A DNA stretch of 55,600 nt. Source: Elusimicrobiota bacterium (GTDB taxonomy: Bacteria; Elusimicrobiota; Elusimicrobia; UBA1565). Shown here piece after piece: positions 12,959 to 36,197 of this stretch. The stretch's first letter is position 1; each line of letters starts with the position of its first letter. The position numbers and the translations under genes are program-made. The notes beneath the pieces are model-generated. The model did no database searches. It was not told where the DNA came from and was given only the letters and a program-made list of their open reading frames with translations. The stretch is from contig JACPXC010000062.1 of NCBI GenBank assembly GCA_016196755.1, forward strand, positions 109,043 to 164,642, in the 5' to 3' direction.

Positions 12959-12968
12959 CAGCCACCTG

Positions 12969-13049
12969 TCGGTGTCAGGTGTTGACTTGTTGACTTGTCA
13001 GCGCCTGGTCTTGCCTCCGACAAGTCAACAAGTCAACACCTGACACCGA
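12969..13049. repeat. Perfect 31-bp inverted repeat, REPIN-like
   Basis: Arms at 12969-12999 and 13019-13049 are exact reverse complements, separated by 19 bases. Each arm contains GTTGACTT twice in tandem (12981-12996 in the left arm) and ends in GGTGTCAGG/CCTGACACC. Paired inverted short repeats like this resemble REP doublets mobilised by REP-associated tyrosine transposases; none is encoded here. It could also fold as a long RNA hairpin after the 12419 gene. Confidence 0.85.
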
Positions 13050-13066
13050 AAAGTGACACCGAAAAG
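13041..13066. repeat. Tandem 13-base repeat (TGACACCGAAAAG twice)
   Basis: TGACACCGAAAAG occurs at 13041-13053 and again at 13054-13066 without a gap. The first copy overlaps the end of the right arm of the long inverted repeat, so the two structures probably arose together. Confidence 0.85.
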
Positions 13067-13133: not shown

Positions 13134-13166
13134 ACAGCGAAATTACGACATAAGTCTTTTCGCTGT
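13134..13166. repeat. Inverted repeat ACAGCGAAA/TTTCGCTGT at the end of the HTH gene
   Basis: Nine-base arms at 13134-13142 and 13158-13166 flank 15 bases; the right arm reaches the stop codon of the helix-turn-helix gene. It may act as its terminator, and it overlaps the candidate left end of the IS630-like element. Confidence 0.55.
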
Positions 13167-13594
13167 CAAGCGGCCAGTCTCTTGAGCAGCCGCTGGCACT
13201 GGCGCAGGCTCAGGCTGCGGTTGTAGGCGCGCGCCAGGTGGGCGCGCAAGAGCGGCCCGTTCCAGCGCCTGTCGGGCCAGCCGCAGCGCACCGGGTCGGC
13301 CATGAGCTGGCGCTGCAGGCGCGCCGCCTCGGCCGAGGTCAAAGTCGACGGACGGCCGGGCTTCCCCTTCTCCTGCAGGCCTGTCAGGCCGCGGGTCTCG
13401 TATCGACGTACCCAATGCTCGACTGCCCGAGGGCTCCTCCCCCACACGGCCGCGGTCTCATAGCAGCTGAGGCCCCGGCAGACCGACAAGATCCCATGAA
13501 GGCGGTGGTCGTAGCGAGACTCGCGCGAACGGAGGATCTCCCGCCAGATGACCTGCTCCTTGTTCTTCGCGTCCACGATGCTGAGCCTGCGCAT
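13166..13594 (-). CDS. IS630-type helix-turn-helix protein without DDE domain
   Basis: 142 residues. The sequence resembles the N-terminal winged helix-turn-helix part of IS630 transposases: LHGILSVCRGLSCYETAAVW, then GRSPRAVEHWVRRYETRGL, GLQEKGKPGRPSTLT and a second helical unit ending in LRQCQRLLKRL. IS630 enzymes continue with a DDE catalytic domain; here the frame stops after the DNA-binding part and the 207 bases to the next gene are too short to hold one. It may be a truncated transposase, half of a two-frame element, or a domesticated DNA-binding protein. A strong ribosome-binding site (GGGGAGGAAG) lies before the ATG, and a canonical promoter precedes it. Confidence 0.75.
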   Translation of the reverse strand: MRRLSIVDAKNKEQVIWREILRSRESRYDHRLHGILSVCRGLSCYETAAVWGRSPRAVEHWVRRYETRGLTGLQEKGKPGRPSTLTSAEAARLQRQLMADPVRCGWPDRRWNGPLLRAHLARAYNRSLSLRQCQRLLKRLAA

Positions 13595-30208: not shown

Positions 30209-31102
30209 ATGGCGCACCGCGCGGGCTTCGTCTCGATCCTCGGCCTTCCCAACGCCGGAAAATCCACCCTGCTCAACGCCCTCTTGGGCCGCCGCCTGGT
30301 CTCGGTGTCCCCCAAGCCGCAGACCACGCGCCACCGCATCCTCGGCATCCTCAACACCGAGGACGCCCAGGCCGTCTTCGTCGACACGCCGGGCTGGCTC
30401 GAGAAAGCCTCCGACCCGCTCCAGGAGAGCCTGCGTACCGAGGTCAAGCGCGCCGCCCGCGAGGACGCCGACCTCGCCATCCTCGTCGTCGAGCCGCGCG
30501 TGCCCTCCCCCGAAGCCCTGGCCGCGCTGACCCAGCTCGTCCCGAAGAAAGTGCCGCTGTTCTTGGCGCTCAACAAGCGCGACATCGCCAAGAGCGAGAC
30601 CTACCTCGACGCCGCGGCCGCGGCCTGGACCGCCGCTCTTCCGCAGGCCGTCGTGTTCAAGGTCAGCGCGCTCAAGGGCCCCGGCCTCCCGGAGCTCAGG
30701 GCCGCGGCGCTGGCCGCCCTGCCCGAGTCCCCCGCGTTCTACGACAAGGAACAGCTCTCCGACCGCTGGGACCGCTTCTTCGCCTCGGAGTTCGTGCGGG
30801 AGCAGATATTCTCCTTGTACTCCGACGAGATCCCCCACGCCTGCGCCGTCGTCATCGAGGAATGGAAAGAGACCCCGCGCCGCGACCTGGTCTGGGCCAC
30901 GGTGCACGTCGAGAAGGAGTCCCAGAAGGGGATCCTGATCGGCAAGGGCGGGACGGCGCTCAAGAGGCTCACCGAGCGCGCCCAGGCCTCGCTGGAGGCG
31001 TTCACCGGCCGCAAGGCCGTGCTCGAGGTCTGGGTCAAGGTGCGCAAGGACTGGCGGCGCGACGCGCGCTCGCTCAAGGAGTTCGGCTACCTGGACGGAT
31101 GA
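30209..31102 (+). CDS. era: GTPase Era
   Basis: 297 residues. G1 GLPNAGKST (residues 12-20), the switch PQTTRHRILG, G3 DTPGW, G4 LNKRD and G5 VSALKG are in place. The C-terminal KH domain has ILIGKGGTALKRLTERA and the final segment LEVWVKVRKDWRRD. Era binds 16S rRNA and 30S subunits during ribosome maturation. It starts 57 bases from the hemW start on the opposite strand. Its stop overlaps the start of the GYF-like gene. Confidence 0.96.
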   Translation: MAHRAGFVSILGLPNAGKSTLLNALLGRRLVSVSPKPQTTRHRILGILNTEDAQAVFVDTPGWLEKASDPLQESLRTEVKRAAREDADLAILVVEPRVPSPEALAALTQLVPKKVPLFLALNKRDIAKSETYLDAAAAAWTAALPQAVVFKVSALKGPGLPELRAAALAALPESPAFYDKEQLSDRWDRFFASEFVREQIFSLYSDEIPHACAVVIEEWKETPRRDLVWATVHVEKESQKGILIGKGGTALKRLTERAQASLEAFTGRKAVLEVWVKVRKDWRRDARSLKEFGYLDG

Positions 31103-31839
31103 CGCGCTGGACCCTGCGGCTGCGCGGTGAGGAGCTCGGCCCCCTGACGGTGGCCCAGTTGGCCGCGCGCGCCGACGTCGAAGCCGGCGCCCAGGTCCGC
31201 GCCGAGGGCGGCGGACCCTGGATCGAGCTGGCCGAACTGGCCGAGCGCCATCCCGAGCTGGCGGCCTGCCTCAAGGCGCGCGCGCGCGCCGCCGAGTCCT
31301 GGGCCGCGGTCGAGGCCGCGCGCAAGGAACTGGCCGCCTTGGACGGCACGGTCGCGGAACCTCCTCCCAAGCCGAGATCCATCCCCGCGCCCATCCCCAT
31401 CACGCCGCGGCCCCGAAAGGCCTCTCCTCCCCCCGAATCGGCACCCGAGCCCGTCTTCGAAGCTCCCGTCTCGGAGCCGCGCGCGACGGCCCGAGTCGGG
31501 CTGTTCGTCCCGGCATTGATCTGCGCGGCCGCGCTTTCTGCGCTGGGAGCCTGGTTCTACGCCCATGGGAAAGCCGGCAAGCCCCCGCCGCCCGCGCCGC
31601 CGCCGCCCGCAGCCGCCCCCAAGACATCGGAGGCGGCACTTCCTCGCGATAGCGCTCGGTCGCCGAAGGCGCGGAAGTCCCGCCAGAAGCCCGTCGCGCC
31701 GCTGCCTATGCCCGGAGAGGCCGCGCTGGAGGAGCCGACCCCTTTGCCGGGCTCCTCCGCGGGTCCGATCCTCGCGCCGAAGCCGAAGCCCAAGAGCCCG
31801 TCTACCGCAGGGCTTCCAGGCTACGGCTCAGATCAGTAA
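31099..31839 (+). CDS. Single-pass membrane protein with N-terminal GYF_2-like domain
   Basis: 246 residues. The first 50 residues (MTRWTLRLRGEELGPLTVAQ, then GAQVRAEGGGPWIELAEL) match the pattern of GYF_2-type domains: W, then GP, then L, then a final W. A helical stretch follows, then a Pro-rich linker (about 90-130), a membrane helix (VGLFVPALICAAALSALGAW), and a basic Pro/Ala-rich tail. GYF domains bind proline-rich peptides; the N-terminal domain is probably cytoplasmic. The tail contains SEAALPRDSARS, also found in the SPOR protein at 35484. Its stop overlaps recQ by 12 bases. Confidence 0.7.
   Translation: MTRWTLRLRGEELGPLTVAQLAARADVEAGAQVRAEGGGPWIELAELAERHPELAACLKARARAAESWAAVEAARKELAALDGTVAEPPPKPRSIPAPIPITPRPRKASPPPESAPEPVFEAPVSEPRATARVGLFVPALICAAALSALGAWFYAHGKAGKPPPPAPPPPAAAPKTSEAALPRDSARSPKARKSRQKPVAPLPMPGEAALEEPTPLPGSSAGPILAPKPKPKSPSTAGLPGYGSDQ
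31612..31662. repeat. 51-base repeat, copy A, inside the GYF-like gene
   Basis: Agrees with 35907-35957 at 47 of 51 positions, in the same orientation and reading frame, giving SEAALPRDSARS in both proteins. The core CCTCGCGATAGCGCTCGG has imperfect dyad symmetry. Confidence 0.85.
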
Positions 31840-33687
31840 GCCGCTGGGCTCGCCGCCGGTCAGGACGGTGAGGAACGCCCGCCCGTAGCGCTCGAGCTTC
31901 TTGTCGCCGACGCCCTTCACCGCGCGCAGGGCCTCCATGGTCTGGGGCTTCTGGGCGGCCATCTCGACGAGGGCCGTGTCGTGGAACACGAGGTAGGGCG
32001 GCACGCCGAGCTGGCCGGCGATCATCTTGCGCAGGCGCCGCAGGCGCTCGAAAAGGTCCTCGTCGGGCTGGGCCGCCCCCGCGGGCGCCTTCTTCAAGGC
32101 TTTCGATTTCTTCTTCCCGCGCGCCGTCGGCGGGGCGGGTACGCCGAGGCGCACGCTTCCTTCGCCTTTGCACAAGGCCTTGCCGGCCTCGGTGATGCGC
32201 AGGAGCGGGTAGTCGCCGTCCTCGAACACCTCGAGGAAGCCTTGGACGACGAGCTGGTCGACCCAGGAGCGCACCGCCACCTCTCCGGCGTCCTTGAGGA
32301 TGCCGAAGACCTGCAGGGCGTCGTGGGCGTTGCGCTGGATGCGCTCGTCGCCTTTGCCGAGGAGGACCGCCACGACATAGCCGGCCCCGAAGCGGCCGTT
32401 CGTGCGCCAGGCCGCGCTCAAGACCTTCTGCGCCGTGACCAGCGCCTCGTCGGCGCCCAGGCTCTTGGTCTCCTCGAGGCAGACGTCGCAGCAGAGGCAG
32501 CCGCCCGCTTCCTGGACGGCGCCGGGCGCGGGGTACGGCGCGCCGAAGTGCTCGGCCAAGATGCGGTGGCGGCAGATCGGCGCCACGGCGTAGCGGCCGA
32601 TCTCGCGCAACTGGCGCTCGAGCGATTTCTGGCGCTCGGGGGCGAGGTTGCCGTCCTTCTGGGCCAGCCAGCGGTGGGTGGCGAGGTCGGAGGCCGAGAA
32701 GAACAGCACGCACTCGGCCGGCAGGCCGTCGCGGCCGGCACGGCCCGACTCCTGCTGGTAGTGCTCCAAGGAGCGCGGGGTGTTGGCGTGGACGACGTAG
32801 CGCACGTTCGAGCGGTCGATGCCCATGCCGAAGGCGATCGTGGCCACCACGACGTCGAGGCGCTCGTTGACGAAGTCGTCCTGGGCCTTGCGGCGCAAGT
32901 CGGCGTCGAGCCCGGCGTGATAGGCCGCCGCCGAGATGCCGGCCTCGCGCAGGCCCGCGGCCAGGCGGTCGACGTCCTTGCGGGTCTGGGCGTAGACGAT
33001 GCCGCCTTCGCCTTCGTGGCGGCGCACGACCTCGGCCACTTGCCCCGACTGGTCGCGGCGCGGGAAGGCGCGGTAGACCAGGTTCGGGCGGTCGGGATGC
33101 CCGATGAGGCGGTTCGGCTCGCGCAGGCCGAGCTGGAGGCAGATGTCGTCCTGCACCTCGGGCGTGGCGGTGGCGGTCAGCGCCATGCGCGGCGCCTCGG
33201 GGACGCGGTCCAGCGCTTCCTTGAGCCGACGATATTCCGGCCGGAACTCGTGCCCCCAGTGCGAGACGCAGTGCGCCTCGTCGACGGCGGCCAGGATGAG
33301 ACGGGGGCCGATATCGTCCAGAAGGTCGCCGACGAGCAGGCGCTCGGGGCTGACGTAGAGCAGTTGGGTCTCACCGGCGGAGAGGCGCGCGTAAGCCTCG
33401 GACTTAGGTCCGGACGCGAGATTCGAGTGCAGGGCGTCGGCCGAGAGTCCGGCCTCGCGCGCGGCCGAGACCTGGTCGTCCATCAGCGCGATGAGCGGGG
33501 AGACCACGAGGACGAGGCCGCCTTTTCCGGCCACGGCCGGCAACTGATAGCAGAGGCTCTTGCCCCCGCCGGTGGGGAGGACGACCAGGGAGTCCTTGCC
33601 GCCGAGAGCCGACTCGACGGCTTCCTGTTGAAGGGGGCGGAAGGAGGTATAGCCCCAGTGCGACTTGAGGGCTTCGAGCGTCTTCAT
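31828..33687 (-). CDS. recQ: ATP-dependent DNA helicase RecQ
   Basis: 619 residues. Superfamily 2 helicase with Walker A LPTGGGKS (Lys43), DEAH in AAVDEAHCVSHWGHEFRPEYR, split around residue 135, motif VVATIAFGMGIDRSNVRYVV and QESGRAGRDGL. A zinc-binding RecQ-Ct region has Cys ligands (ICRH, CLCCDVC), a winged helix follows, and an HRDC domain closes the protein (VFHDTALVEMAAQKPQTME). RecQ unwinds DNA 3' to 5' in recombinational repair. TAGTAT lies 12 bases before the ATG, with GGAG between. It overlaps the convergent gene by 12 bases. Confidence 0.95.
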   Translation of the reverse strand: MKTLEALKSHWGYTSFRPLQQEAVESALGGKDSLVVLPTGGGKSLCYQLPAVAGKGGLVLVVSPLIALMDDQVSAAREAGLSADALHSNLASGPKSEAYARLSAGETQLLYVSPERLLVGDLLDDIGPRLILAAVDEAHCVSHWGHEFRPEYRRLKEALDRVPEAPRMALTATATPEVQDDICLQLGLREPNRLIGHPDRPNLVYRAFPRRDQSGQVAEVVRRHEGEGGIVYAQTRKDVDRLAAGLREAGISAAAYHAGLDADLRRKAQDDFVNERLDVVVATIAFGMGIDRSNVRYVVHANTPRSLEHYQQESGRAGRDGLPAECVLFFSASDLATHRWLAQKDGNLAPERQKSLERQLREIGRYAVAPICRHRILAEHFGAPYPAPGAVQEAGGCLCCDVCLEETKSLGADEALVTAQKVLSAAWRTNGRFGAGYVVAVLLGKGDERIQRNAHDALQVFGILKDAGEVAVRSWVDQLVVQGFLEVFEDGDYPLLRITEAGKALCKGEGSVRLGVPAPPTARGKKKSKALKKAPAGAAQPDEDLFERLRRLRKMIAGQLGVPPYLVFHDTALVEMAAQKPQTMEALRAVKGVGDKKLERYGRAFLTVLTGGEPSGLLI

Positions 33688-33754
33688 CGCTCCGACATGA
33701 TACTAATCCGATGACCGCCCACCGAGGCGAGGCACAGGATGCGCCAAGCAGCAA

Positions 33755-33810
33755 TTGCAAATCTACCTATGGATAAATTGCTAATCTACCGCTATATATA
33801 TTGCTATAGC
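33755..33810 (+). promoter_or_regulatory. AT-rich repeats before the DUF4143-type gene
   Basis: TTGCAAATCTACCTAT (33755-33770) is followed by TTGCTAATCTACCGCTAT (33778-33795) and a shorter TTGCTATAGC (33801-33810), then the ATG at 33815. The stretch is far AT-richer than its surroundings. It may hold the promoter and an operator for autoregulation. Confidence 0.5.
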
Positions 33811-33814
33811 ACCA

Positions 33815-35065
33815 ATGAGCTATCATAAACGCGTCGTAGACGCAGAGCTTGCCCGGCGGTTGGCGTCCGCAGGAGCGGTCGTCATCGAGGGCCCGAAGGC
33901 ATGCGGCAAGACCGCCACGGCCAGTCGGATCGCCGCAAGCAAGGTCTTTCTAGACGTCGACCTGGCCGCGCAGCGAGCCGTCGCAATCGACGCGGGCCTG
34001 ATCCTTGAGGGGAAAACGCCGCGCCTCATCGATGAATGGCAGGTTGCGCCGGCGATCTGGAACCCTATCCGCCGCGCTGTGGACGAGCGCGGCAAATCCG
34101 GGCAGTTCATCCTTACCGGCTCCGCCGCCCCGGCCGACGACGTGACGCGACACGGTGGAGCCGGACGGATCACCCGGTTGCGAATGCGCCCTATGTCCCT
34201 TTTCGAGAGCGGACACTCCAGCGGCGCCGTGTCGCTTAGGAAACTCTTCGACGGGACGGTAGCGAGCAGCCCCGATCCGGGCCTCAAGATAGTCGATCTC
34301 GCGAACCAGATCTCCGTCGGAGGCTGGCCTGGCCTGCTGAATCGGGACTTGCAGCAGTCCTTGCAGGCGAATCGGGACTACCTAGAGGAAATACGCCGCG
34401 TCGACATCGGGAAAGCGGGCCGGAGGCGCCGCGATCCCGGCAAGGTGGATCGGATGCTTCGCTCCCTGGCCCGAAATACGGCGACCTACGTCGCCGTCGC
34501 GACGCTCGCCGCGGACGCCGGGGAGCCGAATCGACCGCTTAAGGACGGCACGGCGCACGAATATTTGACGGCGCTGGAGCGCCTCATGATCGTTGAAAAT
34601 CAGCCGGCCTGGGCGCCGCACCTACGGTCGAAGTCGCGGCTTAGGGGCGCGCCCAAGCGCCACTTCGTCGACCCTTCGTTGGCGGTGGCCGCGCTCCGGG
34701 CCGCCCCGGAGCGGTTGCTGAAGGACCTGAATCTGCTCGGATTCTTCTTCGAGTCGCTTGTGATCCGCGATCTTCGGATCTACGCCCAGGCCGCGGACGC
34801 GCAGGTGCTTCAGTACCGCGACAATACGGGCCTCGAGATCGACGCAATCGTGGAATCGGCGGACGGACGCTGGGCCGCGTTCGAAGTCAAACTAGGGGAA
34901 GGCGAGGCGGAGGAAGGCGCGGCGAACCTTCGAAATTTCGCGGAGCGCGTCGACACCAAGAAATGCGGCGCGCCGAGCGCCCTCGGCGTGATCGTCGGCA
35001 TGGGCTACGGCTATCGGCGTCCCGACGGGATCGCCGTCATCCCGATCGGCGCGCTGGGGCCGTAG
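33815..35065 (+). CDS. AAA_14/DUF4143-type ATPase
   Basis: 416 residues. The AAA_14 domain has Walker A EGPKACGKT (residues 25-33), the RAVAIDAGLIL region, LIDEWQVAP as Walker B and ILTGSAAP as sensor. The second half resembles DUF4143, a nuclease-like fold: HEYLTALERLMIVE, FFFESLVIRDLRIYAQ, and D/E-x-K-type residues in GLEIDAIVES and AAFEVKLGEGEAEEG. Such proteins are widespread, often on mobile or accessory DNA; suggested roles include toxin-antitoxin or defence, but none is proven here. Codon use is less GC-biased and the gene is alone after a low-GC, repeat-bearing leader, so it is probably acquired. Confidence 0.85.
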   Translation: MSYHKRVVDAELARRLASAGAVVIEGPKACGKTATASRIAASKVFLDVDLAAQRAVAIDAGLILEGKTPRLIDEWQVAPAIWNPIRRAVDERGKSGQFILTGSAAPADDVTRHGGAGRITRLRMRPMSLFESGHSSGAVSLRKLFDGTVASSPDPGLKIVDLANQISVGGWPGLLNRDLQQSLQANRDYLEEIRRVDIGKAGRRRRDPGKVDRMLRSLARNTATYVAVATLAADAGEPNRPLKDGTAHEYLTALERLMIVENQPAWAPHLRSKSRLRGAPKRHFVDPSLAVAALRAAPERLLKDLNLLGFFFESLVIRDLRIYAQAADAQVLQYRDNTGLEIDAIVESADGRWAAFEVKLGEGEAEEGAANLRNFAERVDTKKCGAPSALGVIVGMGYGYRRPDGIAVIPIGALGP

Positions 35066-35066
35066 G

Positions 35067-35414
35067 CTACTCCCACTCCTGCATCTTAAAGCCGAGGCTC
35101 GCCGCGTTCTCTGAGACGGCGCGCCTAACCTGATCCGAAACACCGTTGGGGAAGTCGGCCTGGACCTCGACCGTGATCTTGACCTTAGCATTGGGGTCAG
35201 AAATCAAATGGGCCACGATCTCCTCGGCGACTTGCACCAAGCGCATCTTGGCCGCCGCGGCGCTGATGTCCACGGCGCCTTGAAACGACCGGACCTTAAC
35301 CCCTGCCGTAGCGCCGGGTGCACCTCCGGCAGCGACGATGGGAACATCGCCGCCAGGGACCCCGACAGCGCCGGGCGCGGCAGCTGGCGCGTCGCCGTCC
35401 TCCCTGTGGCTCAA
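35067..35414 (-). pseudogene. C-terminal remnant of a DUF499/Swt1-type ATPase
   Basis: 115 codons from a TTG. The last 75 residues (VRSFQGAVDISAAAAKMRLV, QVAEEIVAHLISDPNAKVKI, TVEVQADFPNGVSDQVRR, AVSENAASLGFKM) resemble the C-terminal end of the long DUF499 ATPases, which lie beside DNA methyltransferases in defence clusters. An Ala/Gly/Pro-rich linker precedes them, and the frame stays open upstream into the SPOR gene region with no ATPase domain. So most of the gene is missing. An independent small protein using the TTG cannot be excluded. It ends two bases from the stop of the DUF4143-type gene. Confidence 0.5.
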
Positions 35415-35483
35415 ACCTGCGTCAGCGGGTTGATCGGCGCCCCAGGACTTGACAGAAATCCCGCCCGGCGCAATCCTGGGGGT

Positions 35484-36197
35484 ATGAGAACCCGACCCCT
35501 TCTGGCCCTGTCACTCTGCACCCTTTTGAGCGTCGGAGCTGCCGCCGAACCGGCGGTCCTGGAGTACGTGGAAGCCGAGTCCGGCTGGGTCATCCTCAAG
35601 GCCTCCCGGCCGGTGGGCTACCGCAGCAAGACCGACGGGGCTAACATCATCTTCATCGTCGGCGACGTCACCCTCGGCCCGGACGCGAAGGACCAGGAGG
35701 GCAGCGGCGGGATGGTGCAGAGCATCGCGGTCTCGCCGTTCGACGACGGCGGGGTCCCCTCCGCTCTCGTCAGGATTCATCTCGACATCGAGCGCTCCTA
35801 CGCCGCGGCGTGGAAGGAGAACGAGCTTACCGTCGAACTCCAGGACCCCGTGCCGGGTGCGATTCCGGTGCCGAAGGCGCCGGTCAAGGCGAAGGCCGCC
35901 AAGCCGGCCGCCCCCAAGGCCTCGGAAGCGGCACTCCCTCGCGATAGCGCTCGGTCGGCCGCCGCCGGCAAGGGCTTCAGGGTCCAGCTCGCCTCGTTCC
36001 CCAGCGAGGCCCAGGCCGCCAAGTTCAAAGCCGAGCTCGGCGCCGACCTCGGAGCCTCGGAGGTCGTCCGCGCCGTGGCGGCGGGCAAGGTCGTCTACCG
36101 CGCCACGCTGGGGCCGTTCCCGGACCGCGCCGCGGCGAAGGCCGCCTTGGACAAAGCCTCCGCCGGCGGCCGCGATGGCATCATCATCCGCGATTGA
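35484..36197 (+). CDS. Secreted AMIN-like/SPOR-domain protein
   Basis: 237 residues. A signal peptide (MRTRPLLALSLCTLLSVGAAA) is followed by a beta-rich domain, about 25-120 (LEYVEAESGWVILKASRP, ANIIFIVGDVTLGP, ALVRIHLDIERSY, NELTVELQDPVPG), which looks AMIN-like. A Lys/Ala/Pro linker then contains SEAALPRDSARS. The last 75 residues are a SPOR domain (FRVQLASFPSEAQAAKFKAE and VYRATLGPFPDRAAAKAALD). SPOR domains bind denuded peptidoglycan at division sites, and AMIN domains target the cell wall. So it is likely an envelope protein at the septum. It overlaps the methyltransferase-like gene by 23 bases. Confidence 0.85.
   Translation: MRTRPLLALSLCTLLSVGAAAEPAVLEYVEAESGWVILKASRPVGYRSKTDGANIIFIVGDVTLGPDAKDQEGSGGMVQSIAVSPFDDGGVPSALVRIHLDIERSYAAAWKENELTVELQDPVPGAIPVPKAPVKAKAAKPAAPKASEAALPRDSARSAAAGKGFRVQLASFPSEAQAAKFKAELGADLGASEVVRAVAAGKVVYRATLGPFPDRAAAKAALDKASAGGRDGIIIRD
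35907..35957. repeat. 51-base repeat, copy B, inside the SPOR gene
   Basis: Partner of 31612-31662 (47 of 51 identical). Both copies sit in linkers, in the same frame, in otherwise unrelated proteins. Confidence 0.85.

Follow-up and report, generated by a model that had tools for sequence, protein, structure and literature searches.

The question raised by this locus is why two unrelated genes in one window, the 55,600-nucleotide stretch of Elusimicrobiota DNA that was analysed, carry nearly the same in-frame segment. The segments at 31612-31662 and 35907-35957 are identical at 47 of 51 bases and share strand and frame, as the preliminary description had reported, and the features concerned are the following.

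31099..31839, + strand: host gene 1, encoding a protein of 246 aa with one hydrophobic segment and no Pfam family
31612..31662, + strand: copy 1 of the 51-bp element (GCCGC...GGTCG), encoding the peptide AAPKTSEAALPRDSARS
31612..31637, + strand: hairpin 1 of copy 1, GCCGCCCCC...GGAGGCGGC, with a loop 3 nt shorter than that of the 54-bp form of relatives
31642..31659, + strand: hairpin 2 of copy 1, CC-TC-GCG-ATAG-CGC-TC-GG
35484..36197, + strand: host gene 2, encoding a 237-aa SPOR-domain protein
35907..35957, + strand: copy 2 of the 51-bp element, encoding the peptide AAPKASEAALPRDSARS
35907..35932, + strand: hairpin 1 of copy 2
35937..35954, + strand: hairpin 2 of copy 2

Copy 1 is located in the proline/alanine-rich tail of host gene 1, beyond the hydrophobic segment, and copy 2 in the linker of host gene 2, immediately ahead of the SPOR domain. 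Pfam analysis bore out the SPOR label (PF05036, E 6e-15), whereas the label "GYF-like" originally given to the other host found no counterpart in any Pfam family. Two other features of the window were recorded. A 416-aa open reading frame at 33815-35065, between recQ and the SPOR gene, resembles an AAA+ ATPase/DUF4143-type protein and has an A+T-rich stretch upstream, and is possibly a recent arrival. At 12963-13055 and 13166-13594, a 37-bp, 95% complementary inverted repeat, CACCTGTCGGTGTCAGGTGTTGACTTGTTGACTTGTC, lies beside a short open reading frame that reads as a helix-turn-helix transposase fragment; its core, GTCAGGTGTTGAC, was absent from the other loci compared, save for loose matches near two of 40 Y1_Tnp genes.

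A search of the 4.59-Mb genome with a 35-nt core, allowing at most three mismatches, identified 68 sites (33 forward and 35 reverse), and the reversed pattern, used as a control in the same genome, gave no matches, which rules out a chance repeat. The right half alone identified 70 sites; the two additional ones scored 45 and 40 bits with the covariance model, and both start with GCCGC or GCC and have the right end of the other copies. The further copies that the preliminary description had led one to look for thus exist, about 70 of them. Conservation across the 68 copies extends from the left GCCGC to the right GTCG and drops outside, defining a unit of exactly 51 bp, and the borders derived in this way from the whole family are those given for the first pair. 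Head-to-tail pairs spaced exactly 51 bp apart were found on three contigs (C14, C37 and C50). The copies occur on both strands, in more than 50 gene contexts and between unrelated flanks.

Fifty-four of the 68 copies were wholly intragenic, six lay over a called gene border and eight were outside genes, according to gene and frame calls made with a simple home-made codon-usage model trained on the window; copies in relative G008, to whose lower GC content the model is unsuited, were left out of these location counts. Since the caller assigns 88% of the window to coding sequence, coding DNA is not clearly avoided by the copies. The hosts recognized by Pfam include essential genes, and comprise isoleucyl- and arginyl-tRNA synthetases (IleRS and ArgRS), DnaG, topoisomerase I (TopA), a MurD-like ligase, glycogen/starch synthase (GlgA), an amidohydrolase, a histidine kinase, an ABC ATPase, a protein kinase, a subtilase and a transglycosylase, among others. 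Many of the inserts follow signal peptides or occupy linkers or termini. In ArgRS and IleRS, the sequences flanking the insert on either side align well with solved structures.

Among the 54 intragenic copies, 33 were sense copies in which the element starts on a codon boundary, 17 were antisense in a single frame, and four were in other frames. The two main frames therefore account for 50 of 54 copies, compared with about 50% expected from the phases of sites in window genes that match CG|GCCGC at six or more of seven positions. The probability of this excess is about 2e-11 (binomial, calculated by hand, with tandem copies partly non-independent), or about 2e-6 when the sense frame that bears a stop (TAG/TAA in the loop of hairpin 2) is set aside. 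The peptides encoded are AAPKxSEAALPRDSARS in the sense and DRALSRGSAASEALGAA in the antisense direction, each of 17 aa. The 54-bp form of relatives is commonly read in other frames, giving TERYREEVPPP... in the antisense and Gly/Ser-rich, GRLLTASGSGTSSPDGSVG-like sequences in the sense direction. What the inserted peptides have in common is that they are hydrophilic and linker-like. Three properties would allow copies to be tolerated: the length of the unit is divisible by three, five of the six frames usually stay open, and the peptides of the canonical frames are small, hydrophilic and linker-like. Selection would then keep the copies found in linkers and surface loops, at signal-peptide junctions and at termini and purge the remaining ones, while the inserted peptide itself is probably without function.

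Orthologues without the insert, which had been proposed as a comparison, do exist. They were located in two genomes of the same genus (G001 and G002) with a query in which the host flanks were joined. For IleRS, both orthologues align without gaps over the joined flanks, and the extra sequence in the filled gene is exactly 51 bp; in the ArgRS orthologues, the flanks meet directly. The element was also absent from orthologues of GlgA, a histidine kinase, an FtsX-like protein and others, with small gaps at the junctions, and from the G001 orthologue of the SPOR gene. No site was found to be filled both in this genome and in G002, G003 or G007.

Empty and filled sites differ by exactly the unit, so that a target-site duplication is absent. 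The target resembles CG|GCCGC: in 45 of 68 copies, at least four of the five bases of the right flank agree with GCCGC, against a background of 5.4%. This GCCGC-like sequence mimics a true target duplication, but it is already present in the empty IleRS and ArgRS sites of the relatives, and it sits at two registers. Its presence there indicates a target preference rather than a duplication. The element itself starts with GCCGC, so that its circular junction would resemble its target, which suggests that one sequence may be recognized at both.

The preliminary description had called the core of the repeat imperfectly palindromic, and this core proved to be part of an imperfect hairpin, one of two per element, whose stems are paired and conserved and whose loops are variable. 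Pairing was assessed in 71 sequences of the 54-bp form: 90.9% of cells are paired, compared with only 36-46% in slid structures. Changes on both sides of a pair were found in 72 cells, compared with 22.5 +/- 5.8 in shuffled alignments (none of 500 shuffles reached this number) and 9-44 in slid structures. The stems are exchanged as blocks: GCCGC/GCGGC, GCCCC/GGGGC and GTCCC/GGGAC form one set, and CGCG/CGCG, CGCC/GGCG and CGGG/CCCG a second. The evidence for the hairpins comes from the sequences of relatives; the 51-bp form by itself folds no better than its shuffles. Positions -5 and -3 in the loop of hairpin 1 are far more variable than all others, with no clear linkage elsewhere, and simple copying does not account for them. 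No clear subfamily structure emerged from the loop variants of the own-genome copies. It was also observed that position -5 is near-random in these otherwise near-identical copies (A28 C21 T16 G3), beside an invariant A.

The form found in relatives is 54 bp long, with three additional bases in the loop of hairpin 1, and occurs both inside and between genes. A covariance model (R1) had matches in 31 of 295 Elusimicrobiota genomes, a number that includes weak, tentative matches in other families; the carriers are concentrated in the order to which the window belongs. Up to 19 matches were scored for each genome, which makes the copy numbers lower bounds. As the 54-bp form is widespread, whereas the 51-bp form occurs mainly in the family of the window itself, we infer from this distribution of sequences that the shorter form is derived from the longer. 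When 84,980 prokaryote species were scanned for the exact pattern, a procedure that misses diverged copies, 47 stretches were returned, all in metagenome-assembled genomes (MAGs) titled Elusimicrobia except for two untitled "bacterium" MAGs, one of which belongs to the window's order. The same type of scan gave no matches in phages, plasmids or viral contigs, Rfam had no match to any of seven loci, and the literature searched contained no earlier description of such a repeat from Elusimicrobia. As far as searched, the family is confined to Elusimicrobiota. In G008, the element copies at loci L248-L258 have constant flanks on the right or left (gattccgg, ccggaatg), as if the unit belonged to a larger composite repeat.

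Most probably, the repeat is a very short, two-hairpin mobile element that is non-autonomous, inserts precisely and without duplication, is moved in trans, and leaves copies that are tolerated. The precision of insertion, the missing duplication, the target preference, the conserved hairpins, the dispersed, lineage-specific copies and the two tolerated frames are shown by the sequences, and mobility is the reading to which these sequence patterns point. The hairpins would be recognized by a trans-acting enzyme, with single-stranded DNA as its probable substrate, and the element would be joined to the 5' side of a GCCGC-like target. No mobilising gene was found by proximity to or co-occurrence with candidate transposases or by a search for a larger parent element in the genome, a draft of 67 contigs from which a mobilising transposon could be missing. 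IS110 was present in seven of nine carriers and one of four non-carriers examined, a co-occurrence that is suggestive only, the numbers being too small for a conclusion.

One alternative is that the repeat is a REP element and owes its movement to REP-associated tyrosine transposases (RAYT, Y1_Tnp). The genome has 12 Y1_Tnp genes, and both the hairpins and the missing target duplication would fit single-strand transposition. However, no confident element was found near 40 Y1_Tnp loci of this genome and its relatives (one match was borderline, E 0.09), the GTAG or CGTC tag is absent, and distribution does not follow the transposase: G008 is rich in elements without Y1_Tnp, and G001, G005 and G010 have Y1_Tnp with no element found. 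This explanation is therefore unlikely. A miniature element (MITE) sharing its ends with a DDE insertion sequence would account for the many dispersed copies and for the short, imperfect 7-bp inverted ends (CGGCCGC/CGACCGA), but such an origin appears quite improbable, given the lack of target duplication and the fact that all 70 right-half sites in the draft genome are full or diverged copies, with no larger element among them. The strong frame preference and the conservation of the peptide across copies could instead indicate a protein tag or regulatory module spread by its benefit to hosts; this is very improbable, since two different peptides are made from opposite strands at about 2:1, the 54-bp form uses other frames, the hosts are unrelated, and the conservation sits in the DNA stems. 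Gene conversion or common ancestry of linkers, offered earlier as the alternative and in keeping with a near-identical peptide in two nearby genes, can be dismissed with near certainty, because orthologues lack precisely the insert and the copies occupy both strands and dozens of unrelated contexts.

For the two-hairpin mobile element, the observations on derivation, colonisation, transposition and loop variation might be joined into a more tentative reading, that of a mobile element adapted to life within proteins. A 54-bp ancestor would have lost three loop bases, after which both strands encoded bland linker peptides; coding DNA would have been colonised about as freely as by chance placement; and target-selective, duplication-free transposition would be carried out by an enzyme outside the known partners of such repeats. 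The hypervariable loop positions could then reflect mutagenesis of the hairpin tip in each round of transposition. This combined reading is possible rather than probable.

Intragenic palindromic elements have so far been known mainly from Rickettsia and Wolbachia. The present family appears unrelated to them and shows the same habit in the large genomes of another phylum (4.6 Mb here), essential enzymes included. Empty sites, target and frames are all measurable in it, it provides a natural library of 17-residue insertions that conserved enzymes tolerate, and how such elements move becomes a directly testable question.

The comparison drawn in the preliminary description with the Rickettsia palindromic elements (RPE) holds for behaviour, as the repeat is palindromic, in-frame and in many unrelated genes, although the family is separate. 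RPE are palindromic repeats of about 100-150 bp within open frames that are left intact (PMC3767692, PMC2229807), and RPE-1 to RPE-7 are likewise dispersed, in-frame in unrelated conserved genes and also intergenic (PMC2229807, PMC3767692). The Elusimicrobia element differs from them in its length of 51 or 54 bp, its two hairpins, its GCCGC-like target, the lack of a CGTC end tag, and its hosts, which are Elusimicrobiota rather than Rickettsiales. The kind of element is thus known but the family is new, set apart from RPE by length, tag and host.

GTAG- or CGTC-tagged REP families are similar in being short hairpin repeats with many copies, some inside genes (PMC3733652). By the tag criterion (PMC3733652), the present element, which ends in GCCGC and GGTCG, is not among them; moreover, REPs are single stem-loops of 20-40 bp and mainly extragenic, whereas this element has two hairpins in 51-54 bp, is wholly intragenic in most copies and does not adjoin RAYT genes. 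Bacterial MITEs with open frames (the 107-bp Correia element, ERIC and YPAL) are also non-autonomous and fused in frame to host genes (PMC2229807), but the Elusimicrobia element is at most half their size, G+C-rich, and has neither a target duplication nor 5'-TA termini. What distinguishes this family is its unusual shortness, the coding compatibility of its two strands and its measurable target.
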